Part shown: positions 4,200 to 38,376 of the stretch, in pieces | Position numbering within the stretch: the stretch's first letter is position 1 | How the letters are laid out: every line of letters begins with the position of its first letter | IMG/VR virus record: IMGVR_UViG_3300023223_001973 | Coordinates: 1-64,000 of that record | Reading direction: 5' to 3' (one strand) | DNA from: a virus | DNA length: 64,000 nt | The notes under the pieces: model-generated | Database searches by the model: none | What the model was told of the DNA's origin: nothing | The model's input: only the letters and a program-made list of their open reading frames with translations | Made by a program: the position numbers and the translations under genes

Positions 4200-4240
4200 T
4201 TTAGTCAACCCTAACCTGCCTTGAAAGGGGGTGATGTGCA

Positions 4241-4513
4241 ATGGCAGACAAACGTTTGGCGAAGCCCGGCGACGTGGTTGTATACCACGATCCAAAGGGT
4301 GTGCCGCATAACGCTCTGGTAACCATAGCGTGGACTGAGACCTGCATCAACCTGGTGCTTGTATCGGATGATGAGGATAAGCAGGATACGTATGGTCGTC
4401 AGATTGAGCGGCAAACTTCGATGGCTCACGTTGATGAGTCAACGGTGCATGGATTCTACTGGCGTTGGCCCGATGAGGAACCCAACCCATACGTGCCGCC
4501 GAAGTCGAAGTAG
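4241..4513 (+). CDS. Hypothetical phage protein, 90 aa
   Basis: ATG start after an AAAGGGGGTG ribosome site. The N-terminal part (KPGDVVVYHDPKGVPHNALV) looks like a small beta-barrel (KOW/SH3-like) and the end is Pro-rich. I recognise this only as a conserved-looking phage small protein. It is the last gene before the RNA cluster. Confidence 0.65.
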   Translation: MADKRLAKPGDVVVYHDPKGVPHNALVTIAWTETCINLVLVSDDEDKQDTYGRQIERQTSMAHVDESTVHGFYWRWPDEEPNPYVPPKSK

Positions 4514-4597
4514 CCAGCAAGCGGCTTGGAACCTTAACGGAACCTGTTAGCCCGCAATCTGCCATAAGGGTTGACTGAGAGTTTAGAGTGGCTGCTG

Positions 4598-4616
4598 ACG
4601 GACCTGATCAGTCCGT
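4598..4616 (+). promoter_or_regulatory. Near-perfect palindrome upstream of the tmRNA promoter
   Basis: ACGGA at one end and TCCGT at the other surround a CTGATCAG palindromic core. It ends 11 bp upstream of a TATAAT hexamer, so it sits over the -35 region and is placed like an operator. No matching regulator can be assigned. Confidence 0.4.
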
Positions 4617-4633
4617 GCAACTGGCTGTATAAT
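4605..4633 (+). promoter_or_regulatory. Candidate sigma70-type promoter for the RNA cluster
   Basis: A perfect TATAAT lies at 4628-4633, 88 bp before the tmRNA. The -35 position carries only a weak match (TGATCA at 4605-4610). The contrast with the ECF-like promoters suggests host RNA polymerase transcribes the tmRNA and tRNA early. The spacing is reasonable and the -35 is poor. Confidence 0.4.
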
Positions 4634-4704
4634 TCGAGTGGGGGAAGCGCCCACAGGGTTGCTCCAATCGTGGAGATATTGAGCACACGGTCCAGCCAGC
4701 CACT

Positions 4705-4720: not shown

Positions 4721-5070
4721 GGGGGTGAATTGGATTCGACTGGCTGTATGAGCTATCGTGCTGCGTGTCGTGGTTGGTCGGTTGGCCACGTTAAAAGCCG
4801 TCCAAAAGCTTATCTGCGGAATATACCGCACGTCTGCGCTTGGTCTCCGGACCACGTGCCGTCGCTGCCTGAGCGATGTACCCAAGAAGGCACTTCGTCA
4901 AGGTGTCCCGCTGAAGACGGTTTTAGTTGGTGGGAGGACAGGTGGGGAAAGACCCACTGCCGAACCTGCGTCACGAGGGCCGGGCAATAAACGGAAACAG
5001 TGACTATGCATGTAGACGCCGGTAGTTTGGCAGTTCCAGCACGTGGGTTCGACTCCCACCACCTCCACCA
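4721..5070 (+). ncRNA. ssrA: Phage-encoded tmRNA (one-piece)
   Basis: Transfer-messenger RNA rescues stalled ribosomes by adding a degradation tag. The 5' end GGGGGTG (4721-4727) pairs with CACCTCC (5060-5066), including the G·U at pair 3 that marks alanine acceptors. The 5' segment GGATTCGAC matches bacterial tmRNAs, the T arm is at 5043-5059 (GTGGG, TTCGACT, CCCAC), and the 3' ACCA is encoded. Near the 3' part, GACTATGCATGTAGACGCC resembles the E. coli segment before the T arm. A tag ORF starts most plausibly at GCA 4828 and runs to TGA 4870-4872, giving ARLRLVSGPRAVAA, whose AVAA end fits known proteolysis tags. The resume codon is inferred from the ATATACC sequence before GCA and could differ. 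Confidence 0.93.
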
Positions 5071-5175
5071 AATTAAGTCCCTGCTGCGGAGCGTCTTAAG
5101 TGGCGCATGGGAGAGCTCCTCGTGCACAGAGGAGAGGCAACCGGAAGATGGGTATCCGGCCAGTGGGGAATCTAT

Positions 5176-5250
5176 TGACCTGTAGCTCAATGGTAGAGCG
5201 CCTGGCTGTTAACCAGGAAGTTGGAGGTTCGAGCCCTCCCGGGTCAGCCA
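5176..5250 (+). tRNA. tRNA-Asn (GTT)
   Basis: Complete cloverleaf: acceptor TGACCTG (5176-5182) pairs with CGGGTCA (5240-5246), D arm GCTC/GAGC, anticodon stem CCTGG/CCAGG with anticodon GTT in the loop CTGTTAA, T loop TTCGAGC, and an encoded GCCA end. It lies 105 bp after the tmRNA and is probably on the same transcript. It is the only tRNA I find in the window. Confidence 0.95.
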
Positions 5251-5260
5251 AAGGAACGAC

Positions 5261-5521
5261 ATGGACACCATGAAGAAGGGGAACATGCAGGACCAGGCTA
5301 TGGGAACCTGGTTTGTGGATTCCACTGGTACTGTCTTTCTGAAGTGTCCCTTGTGTGGTAGGGTTGGTAGTCTTCGATCTCCTGGGGATAAGGAGGGTCA
5401 TGAGATTGACTCTTACGGTGTAGTCTCTCCTTCTTTAATATGTCCTCGTAAGGGTTGTCCATTTCATACTGAGATTCAGCTTGAGGATTGGAAAGATGAA
5501 GCGCACAAGCCGTTGTCCTGA
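5261..5521 (+). CDS. Small zinc-ribbon protein
   Basis: An 86-residue protein starting at ATG 5261 (a second ATG is at 5270) after an AAAGGAAC site. CPLCG near residue 30 and CPRKGC near residue 62 form a likely four-Cys zinc ribbon. Such small ribbons are frequent in phage accessory regions. No specific role can be assigned. It overlaps the next gene by 26 bp. Confidence 0.6.
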   Translation: MDTMKKGNMQDQAMGTWFVDSTGTVFLKCPLCGRVGSLRSPGDKEGHEIDSYGVVSPSLICPRKGCPFHTEIQLEDWKDEAHKPLS

Positions 5522-5726
5522 GATTAATGAGCGTAGGCTTCGAGCTCGCTTGGAAGGTGAGATTAATCAGGCTTGCAAGGAAGGTCTTATTACTGATGGT
5601 AAGATATTTAATGTTGACTGCTCTCACCCTCATGGCGACAGTGCTCACTTTGCTCTCAAGCCTTCTAAGGGTGGTGAAACTTTACCCGCGGCTATGCGTC
5701 TCTTCGAGGCTGGGTCAAGAGAGTGA
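5496..5726 (+). CDS. Hypothetical protein, 76 aa
   Basis: It starts at ATG 5496 inside the end of the previous gene. The longer open frame begins at 5481. A basic helical first half is followed by a CSHPHGDSAHF segment with several His residues. No family recognised. It ends 3 bp before the GTG of the next gene. Confidence 0.5.
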   Translation: MKRTSRCPEINERRLRARLEGEINQACKEGLITDGKIFNVDCSHPHGDSAHFALKPSKGGETLPAAMRLFEAGSRE

Positions 5727-5729
5727 GAC

Positions 5730-6326
5730 GTGGTTACTAGCTCCCTAAGTGAGGTTGGGTTTGCTATAGGGAATGGAGAGACAAGGAATGGCGTCGATCT
5801 CGGACATATCTCTCAGTATGGTGTTATCTACGGCTGTAATGCGCTATATCGCGACTTCTCTCCTGACATCCTAGTCTCTGTTGATCGTCTTATGATTGGC
5901 GAGATCATGGAGTCTGATTACTCGGGCCGCATGATCTATCGATCTCGTGAGGAGAAAGGTTGGTTGCACTCTACCTGGGAAGATAGGTCATATATTGATA
6001 AAGGGTGGTCAGCAGGCCCGACTGCTGTATGGTTGATGTGTAAGCGACATGTGAACATTAGGCGTATATTCCTAGTAGGATTTGATTTGGATAGTACACC
6101 CGGATCAGGTGGGAAAGATCATCAGAACAACATCTACAAAGGAACCGCCAATTATCGTACGGCTGATGATCCTAATGCTCCTTCAAGGAACTGGGAGAAG
6201 CAGCTCTTGCAGGTGTTTAAGGAGTTTGGGCATATCCAGTTTGTAAGGGTTGGTGGGGAGGATCCACCAATACCCTGGCGACAGTTCTCTAACGTGTATC
6301 AAAACGACCTTGATATCTTGCCTTAG
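5730..6326 (+). CDS. Rossmann-like protein of the glycan locus (DUF115/MAF-like)
   Basis: A 198-residue protein with a GTG start. The N-terminal FAIGNGETRNGVDL, GCNALYRDF and VSVDRLM segments match a family I know from phages and from flagellin or surface-glycosylation loci (DUF115/MptE-like Rossmann fold). The central WSAGPTAVWLM and FLVGFDLD segments fit a nucleotide-sugar-type fold. It opens a run of glycosyltransferase genes, which supports a sugar-related role. Specific activity unknown. Confidence 0.55.
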   Translation: MVTSSLSEVGFAIGNGETRNGVDLGHISQYGVIYGCNALYRDFSPDILVSVDRLMIGEIMESDYSGRMIYRSREEKGWLHSTWEDRSYIDKGWSAGPTAVWLMCKRHVNIRRIFLVGFDLDSTPGSGGKDHQNNIYKGTANYRTADDPNAPSRNWEKQLLQVFKEFGHIQFVRVGGEDPPIPWRQFSNVYQNDLDILP

Positions 6327-7200: not shown

Positions 7201-8051
7201 GGCCTGACTGCGTGAAGGTAGGCTATGGTGATCCACAGCATGGAATTGCTCTTTCTGTAGTGGTCCTATTTTGTGACTTTGATGATGAACAGACGAGGGC
7301 CTCGGCAACTGCTTGCCTACTGTCTGTTCGCGAGACTGCCCCCGTGGATTGTGAGATCATCTGTGTACTGAATAACGTCTCGACTGAGCTTCTTGCCTTC
7401 GTGGAACATGCTGCTGATCGTGATGGTCGCATTGTATTGATTAATCTTAGTGTAAACTTGGGCGTGGTGGCTAAGAATCTGGGTTATGAGATTGCCCAAG
7501 GTAAGCTCATCTTCTCCATCGATGGTGACGTTCTAGTTAGGGATAGGAAGGCCTTTACTGATTGTGTTACCTTTATGGAGAGCCGTAGACATATTCATAC
7601 AGCTCTGATAGGTCCATGTGGTGGTATCTTGGACAAGGAACGATGGACTGATGAAGACTGGCCTATTGCTAAGTGGGAAGAGGGCTCTAATGCCTTTGGG
7701 TATGATGATCCTATCGACTTTGGTGGTGAGGTTGCTGATCTTCATGGCATGAAGGTAGATGCCATACCCAGCTTGTTCTGGTGCTTTCGCAAGGAGGTCA
7801 TGGAGGAGGTAGGATCTCTGGACTGGAGGTTTGGTCCCTTTGTAGGATCTGACTCTGATTTTTGCTTTCGTGTTAAGGAGGCAGGATACGATATATGCCT
7901 TGTGAGAGTTCCTATTACCCATTATGGAGGTGGTGCGAGTACGCACAAGGCCTTCAAGAAGGACATTGATTTCCTAAGGGGAAGTCATATCAAGCTGCTC
8001 TACGATCTGTGGTATGAGAAGTTTGATGTGATAAGTGAGGGAGGCAAATGA
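7197..8051 (+). CDS. Family 2 (GT-A) glycosyltransferase
   Basis: A 284-residue protein starting at an ATG that overlaps the upstream TGA. It shows the GT2 order: an N-terminal SVVVLFCDF strand, an NNVS loop, NLGVVAKNLGYEIAQG, an SIDGDVLV metal-binding DXD-type motif, then FRKEVMEEVGSLDW and a GSDSDFCFRVKEAGYD acceptor-site region. It transfers a sugar from a nucleotide donor; the substrate is unknown. The signature is strong. Confidence 0.88.
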   Translation: MRPDCVKVGYGDPQHGIALSVVVLFCDFDDEQTRASATACLLSVRETAPVDCEIICVLNNVSTELLAFVEHAADRDGRIVLINLSVNLGVVAKNLGYEIAQGKLIFSIDGDVLVRDRKAFTDCVTFMESRRHIHTALIGPCGGILDKERWTDEDWPIAKWEEGSNAFGYDDPIDFGGEVADLHGMKVDAIPSLFWCFRKEVMEEVGSLDWRFGPFVGSDSDFCFRVKEAGYDICLVRVPITHYGGGASTHKAFKKDIDFLRGSHIKLLYDLWYEKFDVISEGGK

Positions 8052-8052
8052 T

Positions 8053-8385
8053 ATGAGTTTACTAGCAGTTCAACGTTTGACTGGTCGGGGCGAGATTCCG
8101 ATTGAGTTAGACTTTATGACTATTCCTGAGGCTCTTAAGGATGCTAAGGATTCGGATAGAATTGTAGTTGATGCCCGTACTATGCGGATGTTGTTTGGGT
8201 TTTGTGAGGATTGGGGGCCTCTTTCCAAGGAGAAGTGTGCTGCTCAGTATAAGAGGTTTGTAACAGCTGAGTTCTTGGATCGATGTATAAACTGTATGGA
8301 GGCAGTGGTGCAAGATGAGGCAACGAAGGAGCAAGTTCAATACTTCCTGGATCGGTTGAAAGGAGTAATGAAGGAAGAGTTGTGA
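8053..8385 (+). CDS. Hypothetical protein, 110 aa
   Basis: ATG 8053 is preferred because GGGAGG lies 8 bp upstream; the open frame extends back to a GTG at 8035. It is predicted mostly helical, with an EALKDAKDSDRIVVDARTMRMLFGF segment. No recognised domain. It follows the GT2 gene by 1 bp. Confidence 0.6.
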   Translation: MSLLAVQRLTGRGEIPIELDFMTIPEALKDAKDSDRIVVDARTMRMLFGFCEDWGPLSKEKCAAQYKRFVTAEFLDRCINCMEAVVQDEATKEQVQYFLDRLKGVMKEEL

Positions 8386-8449: not shown

Positions 8450-8497
8450 ATGAATCTATCTCACATTGGGACCTTTAACCCCAAGGGTGACTCATGA
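8450..8497 (+). CDS. Possible 15-residue leader peptide
   Basis: ATG 8450 opens a 15-codon frame (MNLSHIGTFNPKGDS) whose TGA overlaps the ATG of the radical SAM gene as ATGA. Such coupling is the same as between real genes here. A GAGGG is about 14 bp upstream, farther than ideal. It could be a translational-coupling leader or chance. Confidence 0.3.
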   Translation: MNLSHIGTFNPKGDS

Positions 8498-9927
8498 AAG
8501 TTCTATTTGTCGCTAAAGAGTTGAGGATGGACCCCCTCGGCATCATGTATCTCAGTGCCCAGCTCAAGCATGAAGGGCATGAGGTTGAGCTTGCCCGGAT
8601 GGATGACAAGAAGGCGTCGGGTCATGATGTGGTCAAGAGGTTCCAGCCCGACGTGCTAGCATATTCCATGTGCTCTGGTCTAGAGTGCTTCTATGAACAG
8701 TGGGATAAGGAGTTTCGTAAGCTGATCAACCATAGGGTTCGGAGCATGTGGGGTGGACCCGCGGTCACCTTTGATGTTGCCTTGAGGGCTCGTCTAAGTC
8801 AGGGCCCTGACAATATGGCCTTTGGTGGTGAGTGCGAGAAGTCATTTGCTGAATACTTGCGGACCTGGGAGGAGCCCAAGCCCAGTATCGTGGATCTTGA
8901 TGAGGTTCTCCCTCCTGATAGGGCTATCGCATATCAATTCGAGAGCCTGAGGAATAACCCCATCAAGAATGTTCTTACCCGCCGTGGTTGTCACTATGGC
9001 TGTTCCTACTGCTTCAATCGGGACTGGAACAAGATGTTCCGGAAGCAGCTCCCCAAGGGCATCTATCGGTACCACTCACCCGAACGCGTGGTTGAGGAGT
9101 GCCGGCAGGTCATGAAGGACTGGCCTGTGGAGATGTTCAACTTCGTGGATGACAACTATGCCTCATCTGAGGAATGGTTAGAGGAGTTTGCTCCTATCTA
9201 CAAGAAGGAGATAGGACTCCCCTTCTTCTGCTCCGTCCGTCCGGAGGATGCCCAGAAGAATGGTCCCATCATTCCTCTGATTAAGGCTGCTGGTGGCTGG
9301 ATCGTGAACATGGCCATTGAGTCCGCCAACAAGGAGAACCGGAAGCGTGTTCTCATCCGTGGTGGTAAGGGCCTCCAGCCTGTGATTGACACCATCAACG
9401 AAGTCCACAAGCACGGCATGGTCACTCGCCTGCAAAACATTGTTGGCCTGCCGGTAGAGGACCCGCTTGCTGACGCTTATGAGACTCTGGATTTCAACAT
9501 CATGGCCAAGCCTACCTCTTCATGGGCCGCTCTTCTTCAGCCTTATCGTGGGACCAAGGTCAACGAGATCGCTGAAGCAGGTGGCTTCCTGGCTGAGGAT
9601 CATGTTACCGATGAGGAGTTCTTCGGAAGGTCTGCGCTTAAGATTCGGGATAAGAGGAAGGTCGAGAGACTGCATAAGTTGTGGCCTCTGCTCACCTGCT
9701 ATCCCATCTTCCGGAAGATTGCACCTCTTCTGATCCGTATACCGCTGCCCTTCAGCTGGTTCACGTGGTTCTTCAAGTATACGAAGAAGCACTTCGCTGA
9801 ACGGGATCTGTGGGTTGTATGTCGTAAGAAGTCAGCTCGGGATGCCAACCTGCCCTTCCCTGTCAATTCTGCTCCGAATAAGAAAAAGATAGATGCTGAG
9901 GCACTTGAGACAGCATTGGATTGTTGA
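8494..9927 (+). CDS. B12-binding-type radical SAM enzyme
   Basis: A 477-residue protein. Residues 1-120 resemble a cobalamin-binding Rossmann domain (MKVLFVAKEL, then GIMYLSAQLKHEGHEVEL). The radical SAM barrel follows, with the cluster motif C166-x3-C170-x2-C173 in RGCHYGCSYCF. Enzymes of this layout methylate unactivated carbons or remodel natural products, sugars and nucleic acids. The C-terminal 80 residues contain an aromatic-rich helix (FSWFTWFFKY) that may contact membrane. Next to methyltransferases, sulfotransferase-like and glycosyltransferase genes, a glycan-modifying role is likely but inferred. Its TGA stop forms a TGAAC. Confidence 0.85.
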   Translation: MKVLFVAKELRMDPLGIMYLSAQLKHEGHEVELARMDDKKASGHDVVKRFQPDVLAYSMCSGLECFYEQWDKEFRKLINHRVRSMWGGPAVTFDVALRARLSQGPDNMAFGGECEKSFAEYLRTWEEPKPSIVDLDEVLPPDRAIAYQFESLRNNPIKNVLTRRGCHYGCSYCFNRDWNKMFRKQLPKGIYRYHSPERVVEECRQVMKDWPVEMFNFVDDNYASSEEWLEEFAPIYKKEIGLPFFCSVRPEDAQKNGPIIPLIKAAGGWIVNMAIESANKENRKRVLIRGGKGLQPVIDTINEVHKHGMVTRLQNIVGLPVEDPLADAYETLDFNIMAKPTSSWAALLQPYRGTKVNEIAEAGGFLAEDHVTDEEFFGRSALKIRDKRKVERLHKLWPLLTCYPIFRKIAPLLIRIPLPFSWFTWFFKYTKKHFAERDLWVVCRKKSARDANLPFPVNSAPNKKKIDAEALETALDC

Positions 9928-18239: not shown

Positions 18240-18264
18240 TGAACAACGTGCTCCCCCGCACGTA
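18240..18264 (+). promoter_or_regulatory. ECF-type promoter of the first sigma gene
   Basis: TGAAC 18240-18244, 16-nt spacer, CGTA 18261-18264, 38 bp before the sigma ATG. A second TGAAC at 18225-18229 precedes a CGTG (18247-18250) by 17 nt, suggesting overlapping tandem promoters. Together these would allow a phage sigma factor to control its own or its sister gene. Confidence 0.7.
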
Positions 18265-18301
18265 TGTTCTATGGACTTCTAGCCTGAAAGGATCAGTTAT
18301 T

Positions 18302-18910
18302 ATGAAGGACGAGATAGTCTCCCTAGAGGAGGCATATGAGATAGCCGCACAGCTTTGTCCCTCCATCATGAAGAAGTTGGAAATACCTTCCAACAAGATA
18401 TCCGAAGAAGATGTCATAGGACAGTTTATTACGAACTTTATTGAGAAGGGTTTTCTCAATAAGTTCAACCCCCGCGTTACTTCCTTCCGGTATTATGTCT
18501 ACATGGGCGTACGCAACGCCGCAGTCTCCATGATCCGACATCTCAAGTATGAGGTCACTTCACTGGATGCGATTACCCGTCCAGACCCTGATGGCAAGGT
18601 CTTGGACATTCCTGCACCAGAGCCTGTTCAAGAGATGATCATGAAAGGTCTGCTTGAGGAGGTTTGGGACTTCTCTTTCGGGTACGGCAAGATTGCCAAG
18701 TTGTATGGAGCTGAGGAAGACCTGATTGCCGAGTTACCATCCACTGCCCGCTCTGTTCTACAGATGCTGTTCATGAAATACAGCAAGGACGAAGTTGCCG
18801 CCTTCTTTGGGGTTACTGTCTCGACCATCAATAACGTGATCAGTAGCGTCAGAGATCAGGTTAAGGCGCGAAAGATAACACCGCAGGATTGCCTGTTATC
18901 TGCCTTTTGA
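18302..18910 (+). CDS. ECF-like RNA polymerase sigma factor 1
   Basis: A 202-residue protein. Residues about 34-82 (SEEDVIGQFITNF, FNPRVTSFRYYVYMGVRNAAVSMIRH) match region 2 of ECF sigma factors, where the F-x-P-x-x-x-S-F-x-x-Y/W motif and following helix bind the -10 element and core polymerase. Residues about 145-190 (LPSTARSVLQMLF, then a helix-turn-helix DEVAAFFGVTVSTINNV) fit region 4, which reads the -35 box. It is paralogous to the sigma at 19343. The TGAAC/CGTA promoters around it are the ECF type, so they are the obvious targets. No anti-sigma factor is recognised. ATG 18302 is chosen over the open frame back to 18248, which runs through the promoter. Confidence 0.85.
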   Translation: MKDEIVSLEEAYEIAAQLCPSIMKKLEIPSNKISEEDVIGQFITNFIEKGFLNKFNPRVTSFRYYVYMGVRNAAVSMIRHLKYEVTSLDAITRPDPDGKVLDIPAPEPVQEMIMKGLLEEVWDFSFGYGKIAKLYGAEEDLIAELPSTARSVLQMLFMKYSKDEVAAFFGVTVSTINNVISSVRDQVKARKITPQDCLLSAF

Positions 18911-19342: not shown

Positions 19343-20029
19343 ATGCCAGAAGCTGTCCAAACTACTTCTACAGGTGAAGAAGAGATTATTAAGGCATATA
19401 ACCTCGCTCAGAAGTTCGCTCCTGGGATAATTAAGAAGTTCAATCTTCAGGGTCAGATTGATCCAGAGGACATTGTTGGCCTCTTCATTACCAACTTCAT
19501 CGACAAGGGCTTCTTAGACAAGTTCAACCCCAAGGTTATGTCCTTTGATCGGTATGTCTGGCAGGGTCTTCGCAACTCAGCTATTCAGGCTGTTCGTAGG
19601 AAGAAGGAGCGCACCTCTATTCAGGCCATGGGTGGTGAGGAAGGTGACCTTGGAGACATTCTTCCTGCTGAAGCACCCAAGAGCCGGGAGTTCGTGGAGG
19701 AACTGATTGACGACATTGAGGACTTCAAGTTTGGTTATGGGAAGACTGCCATACTCATGAGTGAGCCGACGGACCCTTCTGATAAACCTGAGGTTATTGC
19801 TGAACTTCCTTCCTCGGCACGTTCCATTATGAAGATGCTCTCTATGGGCTACAAGCCCTTTGAGATAGCTCAGAAGTTTGGCGTCTCTCCGGGTACCATA
19901 TCTGGTGCTATGAAGAGGATTAAGACCGAGCTCAAGGCAGTCTATCCTGAACGCTTTGTCGAAGCTATTCTTCACATACCTGAAGGTATGACCCTGTTCG
20001 ACTCTACCTTAAAACATTTCCTTGGGTAA
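19343..20029 (+). CDS. ECF-like RNA polymerase sigma factor 2
   Basis: A 228-residue paralogue of sigma 1: the segments DPEDIVGLFITNFIDKGFL, DKFNPKVMSFDRYVWQGL and RNSAIQAVRRKKE align directly to region 2 of its sister, and LPSSARSIMKML with FEIAQKFGVSPGTISGAMKRI to region 4. The linker is about 15 residues longer and the C-terminus carries an additional 25-residue tail. Divergence in the region 2 and 4 helices suggests the two factors may read different promoters or act at different times. Transcribed from Pd, with an inverted repeat at its ribosome site. Confidence 0.85.
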   Translation: MPEAVQTTSTGEEEIIKAYNLAQKFAPGIIKKFNLQGQIDPEDIVGLFITNFIDKGFLDKFNPKVMSFDRYVWQGLRNSAIQAVRRKKERTSIQAMGGEEGDLGDILPAEAPKSREFVEELIDDIEDFKFGYGKTAILMSEPTDPSDKPEVIAELPSSARSIMKMLSMGYKPFEIAQKFGVSPGTISGAMKRIKTELKAVYPERFVEAILHIPEGMTLFDSTLKHFLG

Positions 20030-20060: not shown

Positions 20061-20420
20061 ATGTTTAGGGTTCCAGCTCTCAAAGAGCTTGAAGGGGTTG
20101 ATGCTGAGCCTCTTGGTAAGAAGATCTGGAAGTATGAGCGGTTTGTACACAAGCAGCGTATCCTTATAGTAAATACCAACCTCTCTGATCCTTCTGAGAA
20201 GATCTTTATGATAGAGTACCAGATTGGGCCTGAGGTTCTCAACTCCATTATTGAAGGCGTATCTACTATAGAAGAGGCGCTCAAGAAGTATGCCAAGACC
20301 ATGCATAGTAGCCTGATTGAGATGAAGAAGAAGATTGATACGCAGCGGTTTAGAGCAAATAGCGCACCTCCACCTGGGTTTGATATTCAGGGTCCTGATC
20401 GCGGTATAATAACCCCTTGA
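20061..20420 (+). CDS. Hypothetical protein, 119 aa
   Basis: ATG 20061 follows GGGAGG; the frame is open back to 20022. Mixed alpha/beta first half (FVHKQRILIVNTNLSDP, IFMIEYQIGPEVL), helical middle, and a Pro-rich C-terminus. No family recognised. It lies between sigma 2 and the ubiquitin-like cassette, and its TGA is part of the promoter of that cassette. Confidence 0.6.
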   Translation: MFRVPALKELEGVDAEPLGKKIWKYERFVHKQRILIVNTNLSDPSEKIFMIEYQIGPEVLNSIIEGVSTIEEALKKYAKTMHSSLIEMKKKIDTQRFRANSAPPPGFDIQGPDRGIITP

Positions 20421-20442
20421 ACCTAAGCTCATGCCATGCGTA
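20418..20442 (+). promoter_or_regulatory. ECF-type promoter Pe of the ubiquitin-like cassette
   Basis: Exact TGAAC (20418-20422), N16, CGTA (20439-20442); TGA is the upstream stop codon. The AAAGGAGG site of the JAMM gene follows 12 bp later. Confidence 0.75.
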
Positions 20443-20467: not shown

Positions 20468-20980
20468 ATGGGCATGACGTTTACGGAACCAACCGTAGTC
20501 ATCAACTACAAGCCTTATGCTAAGATGATGCACTACATTCGCTGGGCCAAGGGTGAAATCTCTGGCTTCGGTGAAGCAGAGTTCAGGGACAACCACGTCG
20601 TAGTGGTTAAGTCCGTTTTCATCCTTCCTCAAGAGTGTTCAGCTGCATACACTGAGCTGACCGAAGAGGGTCTCACCGACTTTCTGTACCACTGTGCTAA
20701 AAAGGGTAAGGACCCCTCTAGCTTTCGGTTCTGGTGGCACTCACACGTGAACTTCAGCGTGTTCTTCTCCACGATTGACACTGACAACATCGCAAGGTTG
20801 GCCTCTGTTGCACCTTGGGTGTCGCTCTGTGCCAACAAGAGGGGGCACATGGTTGCCCGTTATGATGATGGTGGGAAGTCTACCCCCATGGGCATCTTCG
20901 TAAACCCTACTTCTGGCTCGCACCTAATGCGCATCTGCAGAAAGCAGATAAAGCGGATGGTCGGGCCAGTGAAGTCATAG
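20468..20980 (+). CDS. JAMM/MPN metalloprotease (deubiquitinase-like)
   Basis: A 170-residue protein with an intact JAMM zinc site: Glu30 in KGEISGFGE and H91-S-H93-x7-S101-x2-D104 in the segment beginning HSHVNF. Members cleave isopeptide bonds or trim ubiquitin-like proteins after a Gly-Gly. It is followed by an E1-like gene and, two genes on, by a ubiquitin-like protein with GG plus three residues at its C-terminus, a natural substrate for trimming. Compare BilC and Cap3 in bacterial ubiquitin-like systems. Phage tail JAMM proteins (lambda K type) are an alternative, but there are no tail genes here. Confidence 0.88.
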   Translation: MGMTFTEPTVVINYKPYAKMMHYIRWAKGEISGFGEAEFRDNHVVVVKSVFILPQECSAAYTELTEEGLTDFLYHCAKKGKDPSSFRFWWHSHVNFSVFFSTIDTDNIARLASVAPWVSLCANKRGHMVARYDDGGKSTPMGIFVNPTSGSHLMRICRKQIKRMVGPVKS

Positions 20981-21022
20981 CTCCAGAGTCACTTTGGGAT
21001 CTTTACGGTGAAGGAGAGGACG

Positions 21023-21823
21023 ATGAATCAAGCTGACTATAGCCGTCAGTCTGACCTTGTGAACATGGCTGTCTTGCAGGGCCTCCGTGCCACGGTTATC
21101 GGTGCTGGAGCTGTGGGCTCTTACTCTGCACTGGCGTTGGCCAAGATGGGGTTGGGCACCATTGAAGTCTATGATGACGACGTTGTGGCCCCGCACAACC
21201 TGCCAAACCAGTTCTTCCGCAACTCTGACACGGGCAAGCTGAAGGTGGATGCCCTTGCAGAAATTCTGGCTGACTTCACGGATGCTACGGTAGAGCCCCA
21301 TGCTGATCTATACAACGATCAGGAGTTGTATCCTGTGGTGATCGTGGCTGTTGACTCTATGGCTGCTCGCCGGGTGGTCTGGGAGCAGTTCAAGGGTTCC
21401 AATGCTCAGGTCTACATTGAGGCCCGCATGGGCGGTCAGCTCGGTGCTGTTTATACCATCCGCAAGGCTCAAGGTGTCTTGTCTGAGGAAGACAAGCTCT
21501 GGTATGAGCAGTATCTGTATGATGACAGTGAAGCCGACCCTGTGCGGTGTACCGAGAAGTCCATCATTTACAACGTGCAGATGATATCTTCTCTGATCTG
21601 CCGTGCTCTCCGTGCTGTGATCATGCGCGAGGAAGGGTACCCGAAGGAGTTTGTCTTCGACATGCACCACATGCAGACGTACTCGCAGGAGACCCTTGTT
21701 GAGGAAGAGCTGGTAGAGATTGAGGCTGACGTTGAGGACATCTTCGATGAAGATGAGGACGAGAATGACCTGGATGATGAGTTCGGTGAAGAGGACGAGA
21801 TTGAGTATGAGGTCATTACCTGA
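21023..21823 (+). CDS. E1-like (ThiF-family) ubiquitin-activating enzyme
   Basis: ATG 21023 is chosen for its AAGGAGAGG site. 266 residues. ATP-binding loop GAGAVGS (27-33), acidic VYDDDVV (49-55), then HNLPNQFFR with the conserved Arg 66 and GKLKVDAL with Lys 74 are E1 superfamily features. Cys176 in RCTEKSIIY is a plausible catalytic Cys. It would adenylate the C-terminal glycine of the Ubl encoded downstream. The last 40 residues are extremely acidic (Glu/Asp), an unusual tail that may dock the Lys-rich Ubl. Confidence 0.88.
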   Translation: MNQADYSRQSDLVNMAVLQGLRATVIGAGAVGSYSALALAKMGLGTIEVYDDDVVAPHNLPNQFFRNSDTGKLKVDALAEILADFTDATVEPHADLYNDQELYPVVIVAVDSMAARRVVWEQFKGSNAQVYIEARMGGQLGAVYTIRKAQGVLSEEDKLWYEQYLYDDSEADPVRCTEKSIIYNVQMISSLICRALRAVIMREEGYPKEFVFDMHHMQTYSQETLVEEELVEIEADVEDIFDEDEDENDLDDEFGEEDEIEYEVIT

Positions 21824-21845
21824 ACCTCCTATCTCCTTATGCGTA
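21821..21845 (+). promoter_or_regulatory. ECF-type promoter Pf (TGAAC-N16-CGTA)
   Basis: Exact match, TGAAC 21821-21825 and CGTA 21842-21845, with TGA the stop codon of the E1 gene. It drives the JAMM-like gene with the nested Ubl. Confidence 0.75.
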
Positions 21846-21863
21846 TAAGTAGTAGGAGAGGTT

Positions 21864-23141
21864 ATGGCAAGACGCAGTAATCCACATGAAGCCTTTCAAA
21901 ACTTCCTGAATGAGCAGGAGAGGGCTCGCTTGCGTCTTAACGATACTCCGGAAGCTGTTGAGGAAGATCAGCTCATAGAGATGGAAGACATGGACTCTGC
22001 TGTCACTGGAGGTACTTCGTCAACGACGATCCGGGTAGAGATCAATGATGGTACGGATGCTACCTTCTCGATGCGAGAGGTTACTCCTACGCCCGCAACG
22101 CGCCCTACTCAGGCTGAGGCCCGGAGAGCTCGACGCCGCCGCCTTATTGGTAGTAATCCTCCTACCCCTCGTAGGCGACGCCGCCGCCCTCGTCCCGTTG
22201 CAGACCCGACTGAGAATGAGGGGAAGGGTAGGTCGAAGCATAAGATCTTTCTGGACCCGTACAAGGACCTTTTGCCACGCGAGTTAAAGCGTAAGGGTAA
22301 GAAGTTCTTCAAGACTATTCTGTTCTCCTCTAAGCTATGGGAACGGGTAGAGTGGTACTGGCGCTACATGGCCGGTAAATCCTATCAGGGTAAGAAGTCC
22401 CGGGATACATCGGTACAGCCCTGGGTTGCCATGTTGGGTGAGAAGGATGGGGTGGTCTCTCGCTTTGTCAAGGCGGACACTGGTAGCCAAGGTCAGCATG
22501 GTGGCTGCTGGAACATGCCCGATCTGACGATTGATGAAATGACGTATGCCGCTGTAAAGCTGGCAGAACGTGGTTACTCTCTGGTTGGAGTGATTCGGGT
22601 AGGCCGGTTTGAGTTGGATGAAGCGGTAGGACTTCGCGGCCCGGCACTTCAAGAGTTTGCACAACAGGGAGCCAACTTCTTCATGCTCTCGGTAGGCATT
22701 GAGGGAGCATGCGTTGAATGTTGGGACCTTGCCAAGCGTACTATAGTTGAGCACAACTATCGTGTTTTAGCCCCGGGTGAGAAGCCCACAGAAGAGGAGA
22801 AGCGTCATGGCCAAGGAACTGAAGAAGGCAAAGAAGTCGAAGAAGGTCAAGAAGAAGTCGAGCGGCAGCTCGGAGCTGGTGCAGTCGGGAGGCATCCGAG
22901 TGATGCTGGTCAAGCTGGCGGAGCCGATGAAGGTGGCGAACCTGCAGAGGGCGTGCTCCCTCAGGGAGTTCCTGGATCGTCGGAACATGCAGCTGAGCCC
23001 GAGCATCCGGGTGAACCGGAAGGTCCGGAGCGGGGACTATGTGCTTCAGGACAACGACATCGTGACTCAGATCACCAAGGTCAGCGGCGGGAACGTGAGC
23101 TGACCGATGCGGAAAGGGCGCTGTGGGGCATCATGGAGTAG
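21864..23141 (+). CDS. Degenerate JAMM-like protein with basic linker; C-terminus overlaps the Ubl gene
   Basis: A 425-residue frame. Residues 1-125 are disordered and contain a strongly basic run (ARRARRRR and PRRRRRRPRP). Residues about 185-300 follow the JAMM fold plan (VAMLGEKDGVV, RGYSLVGVIRVGRFELDE, FAQQGANFFMLSVG, CWDLA) but RVGRF stands where H-x-H-P should be, so it should be catalytically dead. From about residue 314 the frame runs through the whole Ubl gene in another frame with low-complexity Glu/Gly-rich sequence, then ends in a normal-looking LTDAERALWGIME after the Ubl stop. It may be an adaptor or scaffold, or an E2-like partner. Assignment to JAMM is by pattern. Confidence 0.6.
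   Translation: MARRSNPHEAFQNFLNEQERARLRLNDTPEAVEEDQLIEMEDMDSAVTGGTSSTTIRVEINDGTDATFSMREVTPTPATRPTQAEARRARRRRLIGSNPPTPRRRRRRPRPVADPTENEGKGRSKHKIFLDPYKDLLPRELKRKGKKFFKTILFSSKLWERVEWYWRYMAGKSYQGKKSRDTSVQPWVAMLGEKDGVVSRFVKADTGSQGQHGGCWNMPDLTIDEMTYAAVKLAERGYSLVGVIRVGRFELDEAVGLRGPALQEFAQQGANFFMLSVGIEGACVECWDLAKRTIVEHNYRVLAPGEKPTEEEKRHGQGTEEGKEVEEGQEEVERQLGAGAVGRHPSDAGQAGGADEGGEPAEGVLPQGVPGSSEHAAEPEHPGEPEGPERGLCASGQRHRDSDHQGQRRERELTDAERALWGIME
22807..23103 (+). CDS. Ubiquitin-like beta-grasp protein with C-terminal GG
   Basis: 98 residues from ATG 22807, with GAGGAG 7 bp upstream. Residues 1-20 are almost all Lys/Ala/Ser. From residue 28 the pattern is ThiS/MoaD/ubiquitin-like: IRVMLVKL, a helix around SLREFLDRRN, SIRVNRKVR, then YVLQDNDIVTQITKVSGG. 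Gly94-Gly95 is followed by NVS, so maturation by a protease such as the upstream JAMM enzyme would expose the GG for E1 activation. The sequence is GC-richer than its surroundings and is fully nested inside the preceding ORF. Confidence 0.8.
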   Translation: MAKELKKAKKSKKVKKKSSGSSELVQSGGIRVMLVKLAEPMKVANLQRACSLREFLDRRNMQLSPSIRVNRKVRSGDYVLQDNDIVTQITKVSGGNVS

Positions 23142-25817: not shown

Positions 25818-26357
25818 ATGGCCACGAGTCACCCACTGTACCTACCGAAGTTCCTTTGTCCTGAGTATGAGTCTCAAACTGTTTACTCTGGAGATTTATT
25901 TGATAGGTGGCAGGCTTGTACAACCTGTCAGTACTCCAGTCCTGAGAGACGCATGCCGACTGGACAACATGATGCCTCTAACCTCATCATAGTGAAGTCC
26001 TCCGATAGCTTCCCTGTAACGCCTCTTAAGATGAATATGTTCAACCAGTTTCTGTTTAGGGAAGGTATCGACCATCATGATTATATGTTGGTAGCCTTAT
26101 ATCACTGTATGATGCATGGTAAGAAGGTGAATCCTGAGATTGAGTCTGGCTGTCTCATGTGGCTGAATGTTTTCTTCCAACGGCTGAAGAACATTGATAC
26201 CATTATTGTGTCGGGGAATGAGGTAGCTCGTTTGCTCTTTCGGAAGGAGATAGAAGCCTATATGAGAGGGACTGCTCCTGTCCAGGTCACTTACAAGGAA
26301 AGGGTATTGAACCTCACGTTACGCCCATCGTATCTTAGGAAGACGAAGGAGTTCTAA
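25818..26357 (+). CDS. Uracil-DNA glycosylase-like protein (family 4/5 pattern)
   Basis: A 179-residue protein. ACTTCQYSSPERRMPTG and NLIIVKSSDSFP correspond loosely to the Cys-containing start and the active-site strand of Fe-S uracil-DNA glycosylases. IDTIIVSGNEVARLLF matches the later strand and helix (normally v-x-l-G-x-x-A). Four Cys (residues 14, 34, 37 and about 112) could hold a cluster. It is immediately followed by an endonuclease IV gene, the next enzyme of base excision repair, which supports the call. The catalytic motif is weak. Confidence 0.45.
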   Translation: MATSHPLYLPKFLCPEYESQTVYSGDLFDRWQACTTCQYSSPERRMPTGQHDASNLIIVKSSDSFPVTPLKMNMFNQFLFREGIDHHDYMLVALYHCMMHGKKVNPEIESGCLMWLNVFFQRLKNIDTIIVSGNEVARLLFRKEIEAYMRGTAPVQVTYKERVLNLTLRPSYLRKTKEF

Positions 26358-35305: not shown

Positions 35306-35633
35306 ATCGGACTTACTCGCTCTGATTGAGGTCTTGGTTGGTAAAGGTGTCATTTCAACAACTGATGCCCGTAGGGTCAAAGAGGTATCAGACCTGGTAA
35401 AGCTTCTAGTCGCTCAAGATCTAGTAACTGAAGAAGAGGTCGAAGAACTTACTATCATGTATGGCGATTTCCTAAATCAGTTGTTGGTTTTATACCAACG
35501 AGGCGTACATGATAAAGATCTCTTCAATCGCTTGAAAGAAAAGTTCGGCGTTAAGTTCCCTAAGATCTTCACTCTTTTGGAGCAGATGCATGAGAATCCA
35601 CGACAGGGACACGATACGGCAGACGCTAGTTGA
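35292..35633 (+). CDS. Hypothetical helical protein, 113 aa
   Basis: Starts 14 bp inside the clamp gene and ends 44 bp inside the next gene. Entirely helical pattern (SDLLALIEVLVGKGV, DLVKLLVAQDLV and LFNRLKEKFG). No recognised family. Confidence 0.6.
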   Translation: MQKSKSDLLALIEVLVGKGVISTTDARRVKEVSDLVKLLVAQDLVTEEEVEELTIMYGDFLNQLLVLYQRGVHDKDLFNRLKEKFGVKFPKIFTLLEQMHENPRQGHDTADAS

Positions 35634-38376
35634 CAACGTAAGGCTGCTTAAAGAGCCTGGTTGGTTCTTCTTCGAGGATACCAACCTTGGCAAGCCTGAG
35701 GACTTCGACAAGGCGAAGCTGCGTATCTTGATCCTGTTTCTCTCCGCAGGCGAGACCCGCGCTGTCTCCTCGACTGACATTGTGCTGACCTCGATTGTTC
35801 AACAGCATCTGGGCGATCAAGCCTTTGTGGACGTGTGCTTCTTGCCCACGCAGCACAATGCTGAGGTCTTGGATAAGCTCAACCTTCCTTGGGTCTTCGG
35901 TGGGTTGTCCCATCGCCACATCAACGAATTTGACATGGTGATTGTCTCCAATGCAATCATTGATGAGAAGATCAATATCTTCCCGCTGTTCCTGAAGAGT
36001 GACTTCCCTCTATGGTCCACTGAGCGGTTTGATAAGGAACATCCTCTTGTCATGTTGGGTGGGCATGGTGCTTCTGAGGCTGAGCCTCTCTATGGGGTCT
36101 CTGCGGATGGTAAGAACCGTTGCATTCCCGATTGTACCTATACGGGGTTTGCTGAACGCTTCTTCCCAGATATGCTGAAGACTCTTCTGGCCATGCACAC
36201 CGAGCAAAGCCTGAGGACCCGGGATAAGAAGGAGCTTGCCTTCGATCTGGTTAAGGATTATGAGAATATCTATATCCCCTGGGCCTATGATCACATCCTG
36301 GCGGAAGATAACTGGACGATTAAGGAGATCGTTCGGAACACCAAGCGGGTGCCTAAGCGTGTGAAGTTCGCTAAGGTCCTGCCTGAGGACTGTGAGAACG
36401 TAGCAGGGTTTGAGAACAAGCTCCTGTACAGTCATGGGAACTATGATTCCAATGACATCCAGATCAGCTTTGGGTGCAGTGGTGGCTATGTTTGCAGCTT
36501 CTGCCATGAGGGGAACCTACAAGCTTGGCGCGAGAAGTCTGTGGATAAGATCGTGAAGGAGATGCAGGCTGCTCGTAACAAGTCATTGTCCAGTACTATC
36601 TCCTTCTATAGTTACAACACGAATTACCACACGCAGTACGAAGACATGATGAAGGCTGCGGCATCTATGTACCCGAAGATCTCAGCCATCGCTATGCGTG
36701 CTGATGAGATCGCTGCCCGGCCCGACTACTTCAAAATGAACAAGTACCTGGGTCTCTCCCGGATAACTCTAGGCGTGGAAGGTGTCAGCGCCAGGCTCCG
36801 GGATGGCTACATGACCAAGGCTCTCAGTGAGCAGTCGATCTTTGAGGCTGCTAACGCCTGCTTTATGAACCGGTTTATGCAGGTTAAGCTGTTCTTCATC
36901 CTTGCAGGAGTGGAAGAGCAGCAGGACTGGGAGGAAGGCGTGAAGATGATTAAGACTCTGGTTCGTATGCGTGACGAGTCTGGGGCCAATACACATCTTC
37001 GTGTATCCTTCTCCATTCTGTGCTACTATCCTGACACTTCCATTGCATGGGAGGAACGTAGGGCTGTTAAGCACACCATCGAGAAGGGGCGGATCTCGTA
37101 CTTTATTGAAGAGTGCAAGAAGATGGGTGTAGGAACCCGTTTCTCTTCGCGTGGCATGTCCACTGTCTTCCAGCAGTACAATCTGGATGTTGGTCGTCCT
37201 ATGACGGCCATCTACGACCGTCTCTACAATGAGCAGGGGTTCATCTGGTACCGGAACGTACCGGACAGCATAGTTCATAGGCTTCTTGAGCTCTGTGAGG
37301 AATATGGTCTTCCCGACTATAAGAAGATCCTTGATCAGCGTCCCTATGACTGGATCTTCCCTTCTGACACTATCTTCGTCAAGAGTCGTCAGTTCTTGGT
37401 GAAGGCTGCTAAGAAGCTGAAGAACATGGAGCCTGTGATCTACTGTATGCCCACGCAGTCCAAGAATGAAGCACGTGGCTGTGACTCCTGCGGCCTGTGT
37501 AACACCAAGGAGCTGGTGGCTATTACGTCGGGTAGAGTGTCTCATGGGACGAATGTGCCTGTCGATGAGGTTATCCTGACTCTCGCCAAGAACAAGCCTT
37601 ATCATCGGTATCGGTTTGAGTTCAGGGTTCCTAAGGAGGCTGCGTTCCTGGTTAAGAGACCACTGGCTCATTATCACATTGCTAAGCTCCTGCCTGAGGA
37701 GTTCAAGCCAGAAGTGTACAGTGTGGGGTCTGATGGTGACCCGGGACGCTGGACAATCTGCAATGAGACTCCTTACTCCTTCCACGGTAAGTACTTCTTC
37801 GACCTGTTGACGAAGGTGCCCATGCCAGAGCTTCCCATGGACAGGGATCTGGGACTGCTCAAGCTGAAGGGCATCCATGAGATTCCTCTCAAGTTTGCTC
37901 TCAAGCCCAATGACCTGGTGCTGTCGGTCATGTCAGTAAGGGGAGACTCCAGGCTGTATCAAGGTCTACGGAGTGGCTCTATCAGGTTCCCCTGGATGAA
38001 GAATGACTTCCCGCTGGAGTGGTCTCATGATGCCGGTACAGTTGACTTCAGTCTTGTGAAGGGTGAGATAGATAAGCTGCTTGTGGTGCATCCTATCCGC
38101 TCTAACATGGTGAAGTGGCTGAGCGATCTGACTGGGAAGAATTACATGGGAGCTTATAAGGATAACTTTATAAGCTTGGAGCATGTGACATATATGCGAC
38201 CTGTTCCTGGATTTGGTTGTCGTCTCTGCACGTCAGATGCGTATATTGATCTGACAACTGGCAAACAGGTCTCCTTGTGCCCAGCTCATACCCAGTCCCT
38301 TGTCCTCAAGGCGCTTTCCAAGGGCAAGAAGGCTCCAGTGGTATCACCTGCGAAGGAGCTTATTCTACAGGCCTAA
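35590..38376 (+). CDS. Large radical SAM protein with extra Cys clusters
   Basis: 928 residues. A cobalamin-binding-like domain (residues 40-200) is followed by the radical SAM cluster FGCSGGYVCSFCHEG with C296-x5-C302-x2-C305, wider than the usual CX3CX2C. After the barrel come RGCDSCGLC (about residue 638), a region around RYRFEFRVPKEAAFLVKRPL resembling the RNA-binding-like DUF2344 domain linked to radical SAM proteins, and a C-terminal zinc-like site (GCRLCTSD and LCPAH). Such proteins often methylthiolate or methylate RNA or protein. The function here is unknown. ATG 35590 overlaps the previous gene. Confidence 0.75.
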   Translation: MRIHDRDTIRQTLVDNVRLLKEPGWFFFEDTNLGKPEDFDKAKLRILILFLSAGETRAVSSTDIVLTSIVQQHLGDQAFVDVCFLPTQHNAEVLDKLNLPWVFGGLSHRHINEFDMVIVSNAIIDEKINIFPLFLKSDFPLWSTERFDKEHPLVMLGGHGASEAEPLYGVSADGKNRCIPDCTYTGFAERFFPDMLKTLLAMHTEQSLRTRDKKELAFDLVKDYENIYIPWAYDHILAEDNWTIKEIVRNTKRVPKRVKFAKVLPEDCENVAGFENKLLYSHGNYDSNDIQISFGCSGGYVCSFCHEGNLQAWREKSVDKIVKEMQAARNKSLSSTISFYSYNTNYHTQYEDMMKAAASMYPKISAIAMRADEIAARPDYFKMNKYLGLSRITLGVEGVSARLRDGYMTKALSEQSIFEAANACFMNRFMQVKLFFILAGVEEQQDWEEGVKMIKTLVRMRDESGANTHLRVSFSILCYYPDTSIAWEERRAVKHTIEKGRISYFIEECKKMGVGTRFSSRGMSTVFQQYNLDVGRPMTAIYDRLYNEQGFIWYRNVPDSIVHRLLELCEEYGLPDYKKILDQRPYDWIFPSDTIFVKSRQFLVKAAKKLKNMEPVIYCMPTQSKNEARGCDSCGLCNTKELVAITSGRVSHGTNVPVDEVILTLAKNKPYHRYRFEFRVPKEAAFLVKRPLAHYHIAKLLPEEFKPEVYSVGSDGDPGRWTICNETPYSFHGKYFFDLLTKVPMPELPMDRDLGLLKLKGIHEIPLKFALKPNDLVLSVMSVRGDSRLYQGLRSGSIRFPWMKNDFPLEWSHDAGTVDFSLVKGEIDKLLVVHPIRSNMVKWLSDLTGKNYMGAYKDNFISLEHVTYMRPVPGFGCRLCTSDAYIDLTTGKQVSLCPAHTQSLVLKALSKGKKAPVVSPAKELILQA

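Follow-up and report, generated by a model that had tools for sequence, protein, structure and literature searches.

We identified in a T4-like phage a cassette of four genes that probably encodes a ubiquitin-like protein-modification system. The cassette lies in the first 64 kb (hereafter the window) of a linear IMG/VR virus record of 99,693 bases, and the phage type was assigned from the T4-type head genes of the window (Portal_T4, Peptidase_S77 and Gp23). The four ORFs, all on the plus strand between positions 20468 and 23141, encode a JAMM protease, an E1-like activating enzyme, a protein X from a new family marked by a conserved GCxxMP cysteine motif, and a ubiquitin-like modifier (Ubl), in the order JAMM-E1-X-Ubl (Table 1). 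The parts of the cassette are of known families; the new elements are a phage quartet with a eukaryote-like E2 motif, carried by relatives, and an E2-less variant with GCxxMP proteins. Neither was found described in the searchable literature, which lay mostly outside subscription journals and the later E1-superfamily surveys.

Table 1. Genes and promoter-like motifs of the cassette, in window coordinates
Feature	Position	Strand	Basis
Promoter-like motif GAACCT-N13-GCGTA	20419..20442	+	Exact match; precedes the JAMM gene
JAMM/MPN+ metalloprotease, 170 aa	20468..20980	+	HMM built without the window, E=3.4e-39; E30 and HSH-x7-S-xx-D intact
E1/ThiF-type activating enzyme, single-domain, 266 aa	21023..21823	+	Pfam ThiF, E=2.6e-21; invariant C176
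Second GAACCT-N13-GCGTA motif	21822..21845	+	Precedes the GCxxMP gene
GCxxMP-family protein, 425-aa ORF	21864..23141	+	HMM of the six L044 paralogues, E=8.1e-5; openness of the frame
Ubl, 98 aa	22807..23103	+	HMM built without the window, E=9.1e-6; family profile resembles P. furiosus SAMP2

Gene content of the cassette

The protease, the activating enzyme and the modifier were each recovered as the original prediction had described them. The JAMM motif is complete (E30 ... H91-S-H93-x7-S101-xx-D104), and all of these residues are invariant in an 18-member family alignment, consistent with an intact metal site, as expected of a JAMM/MPN+ deconjugase. HMMs built without the window for JAMM, E1 (E=2.7e-67) and Ubl each had the cassette protein as their sole significant match among the 375 ORFs of the window. 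The best PDB match of the JAMM family profile was the archaeal Rpn11-like structure 6fjv (2e-6), with eukaryotic Rpn11 second.

The E1 matches Pfam ThiF across its full length, and its proposed catalytic residue, Cys176, is invariant together with T177 across 17 homologues. PDB matches of the E1 include MccB and PaaA, and no rhodanese domain was found on the window protein. The window E1 also carries its own C-terminal tail, in which the last 50 residues comprise 25 D/E and no K/R, and the Ubl has a basic N-terminus with 10 K/R against 2 D/E in 29 residues. Both features are absent from the aligned relatives, and it is plausible that the acidic tail of the E1 docks electrostatically on the basic N-terminus of the Ubl.

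The Ubl gene is preceded by an RBS-like AGAGGAG, and its product consists of a lysine-rich N-terminal extension, a beta-grasp domain and the C-terminus KVSGGNVS, that is KVSGG followed by a removable NVS. These features, together with a family profile that is nearest SAMP2/ThiS/MoaD (best PDB match P. furiosus SAMP2, E=3e-9), point to a beta-grasp modifier with a C-terminal Gly-Gly. Most Ubls of the family carry GG or GA at the C-terminus, frequently followed by one to four extra residues and in some cases by a long basic tail. One locus (L005) encodes a tandem two-Ubl protein in which each unit ends in VPKVKGG (4233-4646), and has a further, weak Ubl-like ORF beside its E1 (1897-2265).

The 3' end of the GCxxMP ORF encloses the whole Ubl gene, which is read in a different frame. 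In simulations the overlapping frame stayed open in 0 of 5000 trials under average codon usage, in 0.4% under the usage of gp23 and in 15% under that of the Ubl itself. This openness points to a maintained overlap (overprinting) of the Ubl by the GCxxMP ORF; an artefact, produced by an indel in sequencing or assembly, is also possible. The Ubl has a GC3 of 0.90 and codon usage closest to that of gp23. The high GC3 was discarded as a sign of strong expression, being confounded by the overlap with the GCxxMP frame.

The third protein had been predicted to be a degenerate JAMM-like protein, and this part of the prediction was not supported. Profile comparison with JAMM gave an hhalign probability of 0.1-0.3% and a z-score of 0.55, a phmmer search of PDB sequences lent no support, and an alignment that looked good by eye did not beat shuffled sequences (PSSM). 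Nor was it recovered as a diverged E2 (no E2-HMM match, z about 0). Its nearest counterparts are six tandem ORFs of ~132-184 aa between E1 and Ubl in a second viral genome (L044): the HMM of these six paralogues finds the window protein at the value given in Table 1, the next unrelated ORF scoring 0.07. On this sequence evidence we assign the protein to a new and separate family, defined by the GCxxMP cysteine motif. The window member has an arginine-rich N-terminus, a conserved core (~22293-22779) and a C-terminal tail that spans the Ubl gene. A single-sequence AF2 model of the core reached a pLDDT of 39, too low for a fold call. The six L044 copies, reached via the E1 scan, are the only other members found: direct searches of isolate phages and IMG/VR gave no relatives, a scan with one L044 copy matched L044 alone, and 17 other viral records searched whole held none. 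In L044 a radical-SAM-like ORF, recognized by eye, adjoins the GCxxMP copies.

Promoters had been proposed for the cassette, and the 64 kb contain three exact copies of the sequence GAACCT-N13-GCGTA, where 0.16 are expected; besides the two copies in Table 1, a third (23172) precedes the next gene downstream of the cassette. The ECF-type label that came with the proposal is one we infer rather than observe. A variant of the motif lies at 26309, and the motif is confined to this region of the record. Two similar sigma-factor-like proteins are encoded near the motifs (18248-18910 and 19343-20029), the second with a Sigma70_r4_2 match (E=0.003). Elsewhere the window contains a predicted phage tmRNA (4721-5070; tag AEYTARLRLVSGPRAVAA) followed by a tRNA-Asn, and two radical-SAM proteins (8494-9927 and 35590-38376), one with a B12-binding domain.

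The family across viral contigs and its E2

The predicted association of activator, protease and processable modifier as a phage unit is borne out by other genomes: dozens of viral contigs share the neighbourhood. A scan of IMG/VR with the window JAMM matched at least 19 viral contigs, all at 39% identity or less; scans with the JAMM and E1 alignments raised this to at least 35 and at least 80, all of these being lower bounds because the scans used exact peptide patterns. Deduplication left 93 loci (92 viral contigs and one locus, L039, from a genome collection), 64 of them with enough flanking sequence. JAMM and E1 occur together in 63 of the 64 and all four of Ubl, E2, JAMM and E1 in 45 (by HMM), while no E2 was detected in 10 and no Ubl in 8, and a single locus carries E2 and E1 alone; some contigs are near-identical, so these counts are not fully independent. 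E2-like ORFs were seen by motif search in several of the 10 HMM-negative loci. The usual order is Ubl-E2-JAMM-E1, as against JAMM-E1-X-Ubl in the window. One locus (L030) has two E2-like ORFs (4777-5808 and 7603-8355) flanking a single JAMM-E1 pair. Outside viral records, a JAMM scan of 84,980 species genomes, likewise by exact peptide patterns and so a lower bound, gave one match, L039, an 8-kb contig in a Lokiarchaeota MAG, on which Ubl, E2, JAMM and E1 are all present.

In the relatives, an ORF between Ubl and JAMM bears an HPHVSxxGxxCWG-type motif, of the eukaryote-like pattern HP[HN]...C. The PDB profile matches of this family are nearly all E2s (best E=0.0019). The core of the E2 was modelled by AF2 with a pLDDT of 93.6, and in VIA-align the best 50 matches of the model were all E2 entries (Z 7.6-8.8, 96-125 residues aligned); Foldseek was weak, with Ube2W as top match (E=0.025). 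Although the Z values are moderate, we consider the family-wide prediction of an E2, from profiles and the modelled fold, to be secure.

Related gene sets also occur in cultured phages, namely Xanthomonas phage PhiXhv-12, the crAss-like phage PhiCrAssBcn24 and Flavobacterium phage FpV4. A JAMM tblastn search gave no match in isolate phages; the later JAMM HMM revealed JAMM genes adjoining E1 in crAss-like and Flavobacterium phages (3e-14 to 7e-9), where an ORF upstream of JAMM-E1 carries HSH...C.G with an E2 score that is not significant. The cultured jumbo phage PhiXhv-12 (L002, 1808-5684) has a 140-aa ORF ending in KASGG, which the Ubl HMM matches at only E=0.14, an E1, and a protein of 892 aa that bears HPH...CLG and cysteine-rich ends (E2 HMM 8.5e-5); no JAMM was seen near these genes.

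For the window phage itself, the original remark that no E2 is visible extends to the whole 99.7-kb record, in which none was found, the record being possibly incomplete. The conjugation step is therefore unaccounted for in this phage. Its nearest E1 relative, that of L044 (50% identity), is its sister in the E1 tree (100/100), within a group of E2-bearing relatives that is weakly supported (80/94), and the L044 cassette too has no E2 at the locus. Because GCxxMP proteins stand between E1 and Ubl in these two cassettes, both without E2, we distinguish them as a separate type in which GCxxMP proteins occur in place of E2. The L044 phage (223 kb) does encode an E2, at 137 kb and ~25 kb from its window-like cassette. 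This E2 is part of a second set, E2-JAMM-E1 (134.5-141.5 kb), with an E1 that branches far away in the tree, so that one genome holds two systems.

Readings of the cassette

Since the neighbourhood recurs in dozens of contigs and its relatives have a real E2, conjugation is the best reading of the family. The JAMM would cut NVS off the Ubl, exposing the Gly-Gly, and may afterwards free the tag from its targets. The E1, of homodimeric type, would adenylate the C-terminus of the Ubl and, judging from the invariance of the cysteine, probably load the Ubl on Cys176. In the related phages the Ubl would then pass to the dedicated E2, with its eukaryote-like His-Pro-His/Asn...Cys motif, and onward to protein lysines, whereas in the window lineage the GCxxMP protein of the operon may be a carrier, an adaptor or a preferred target. 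We infer every catalytic step here, as well as that proteins are what is modified. The original interpretation of the locus as a conjugation cassette is strengthened by the recurrent module and by the E2 of the relatives, and has lost the JAMM-like third protein.

One version of the conjugation reading supposes that a normal E2 is encoded in sequence absent from the record, has diverged too far to be detected, or comes from the host; the GCxxMP protein would then be an accessory or a favoured substrate. This would fit a record that is linear and 99.7 kb long, against 223 kb for the L044 phage, which has its E2 away from the cassette, and it would fit the several other loci with E2s that the HMM missed and motif search uncovered. 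However, the L044 E2 belongs to the second set with its distant E1 and need not serve the window-like cassette. We regard this version as possible and somewhat doubtful. It is also possible that the GCxxMP protein does the job of the E2. The stronger form of that proposal, in which GCxxMP proteins are new cysteine carriers or ligases, unrelated to E2, that take the Ubl straight from the E1, with six copies in one phage, seems to us improbable; if true, it would give phages another chemistry for attaching Ubls, in addition to that of the E2.

The main rival to conjugation is a sulfur carrier in the style of QbsC/D/E or Urm1/SAMP2, in which the JAMM would trim the Ubl, the E1 would make its thiocarboxylate and the sulfur would pass to tRNA, a cofactor or a small molecule, instead of the Ubl passing to proteins. 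The window, with E1, JAMM and Ubl and no E2, resembles the E2-less trios known in sulfur-carrier pathways, the Ubl family is nearest SAMP2/ThiS/MoaD, and radical-SAM genes are present in the window (at 8494 and 35590). SAMP2 and Urm1 are themselves dual-function proteins. Sulfur transfer needs no E2, however, and one is present in most of the relatives that share this E1, JAMM and Ubl; the E1 is without a rhodanese domain, and no sulfur-relay gene was recognized in the annotated part of the neighbourhood. We think a sulfur carrier unlikely.

A RiPP-like or other small product is very improbable. On this reading the E1 would adenylate the C-terminus of the GCxxMP protein or of the Ubl, in the manner of MccB-type enzymes, and the JAMM would mature the product. 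In its favour, RiPP pathways do employ E1-like enzymes, the E1 matches include MccB and PaaA, and L044 combines six tandem GCxxMP paralogues with the adjacent radical-SAM-like ORF seen by eye. Against it, the GCxxMP proteins are domains of ~135 aa rather than leader-core peptides, and most relatives carry an E2 without any GCxxMP protein.

Relation to known systems and significance

What is known of ubiquitin-like conjugation in bacteria comes mainly from defence against phages (CBASS and Bil). The closest PDB entries to the family Ubl and JAMM (SAMP2, 3e-9; archaeal Rpn11, 2e-6) recall the archaeal SAMP2/UbaA/JAMM1 system. SAMP2 conjugation in archaea needs no E2; the phage genes differ in forming a dedicated operon, in having an E2 in most relatives, and in the GCxxMP protein of the window lineage.

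By layout, the nearest system is PRTRC, which we take to correspond to the type 6d operon described by Iyer et al. (2006). All 17 family E1s match PRTRC_ThiF, although the window E1 (36.9 bits) does not reach the curated cut-off of 144.75, and PRTRC_C had no match in the window, as it had none in the control genomes. In type 6d operons, too, Ubl, JAB, E1 and E2 are each encoded by a gene of their own, but the E2s there are without the classical His that precedes the Cys (PMC1779556); those of the phages have HP[HN]...C.

BilABCD, the bacterial ISG15-like system, also consists of four genes (Ubl, E2, JAB and E1), with a Ubl processed by the JAB. In that system BilD combines an inactive and an active adenylation domain and BilB has a CEHH motif (PMC11354881). 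The phage E1s, by contrast, are single domains of ~225 aa without such a pair (266 aa and one ThiF in the window), the E2s of the relatives have HPH...C instead of CEHH, and most of the Ubls are single-domain. With CBASS Cap2/Cap3 the cassette shares a JAB protease and an E1 resembling the Cap2 adenylation domain (PADLOC E1-E2, 3.6e-16); it differs in being phage-borne with its own Ubl, and no E1-E2 fusion or cGAS-like enzyme was recognized within it. A phage-borne pair of JAB and Ub-like TAPI is known from lambda tail proteins K and I (PMC1779556), but that pair is without E1 and E2, and the window cassette has no NlpC/P60 and does not adjoin the annotated head genes.

Phages therefore seem to have ubiquitin-like tagging systems of their own, most relatives carrying the full set of E1, E2, Ubl and JAMM. 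The active-site motif of the relatives' E2 is closer to the eukaryotic one than that reported for Bil or type 6d, which bears on the origin of eukaryote-like E2 chemistry and prompts the question which targets a phage would tag. PhiXhv-12, PhiCrAssBcn24 and FpV4, which hold related gene sets, make this testable in culture.
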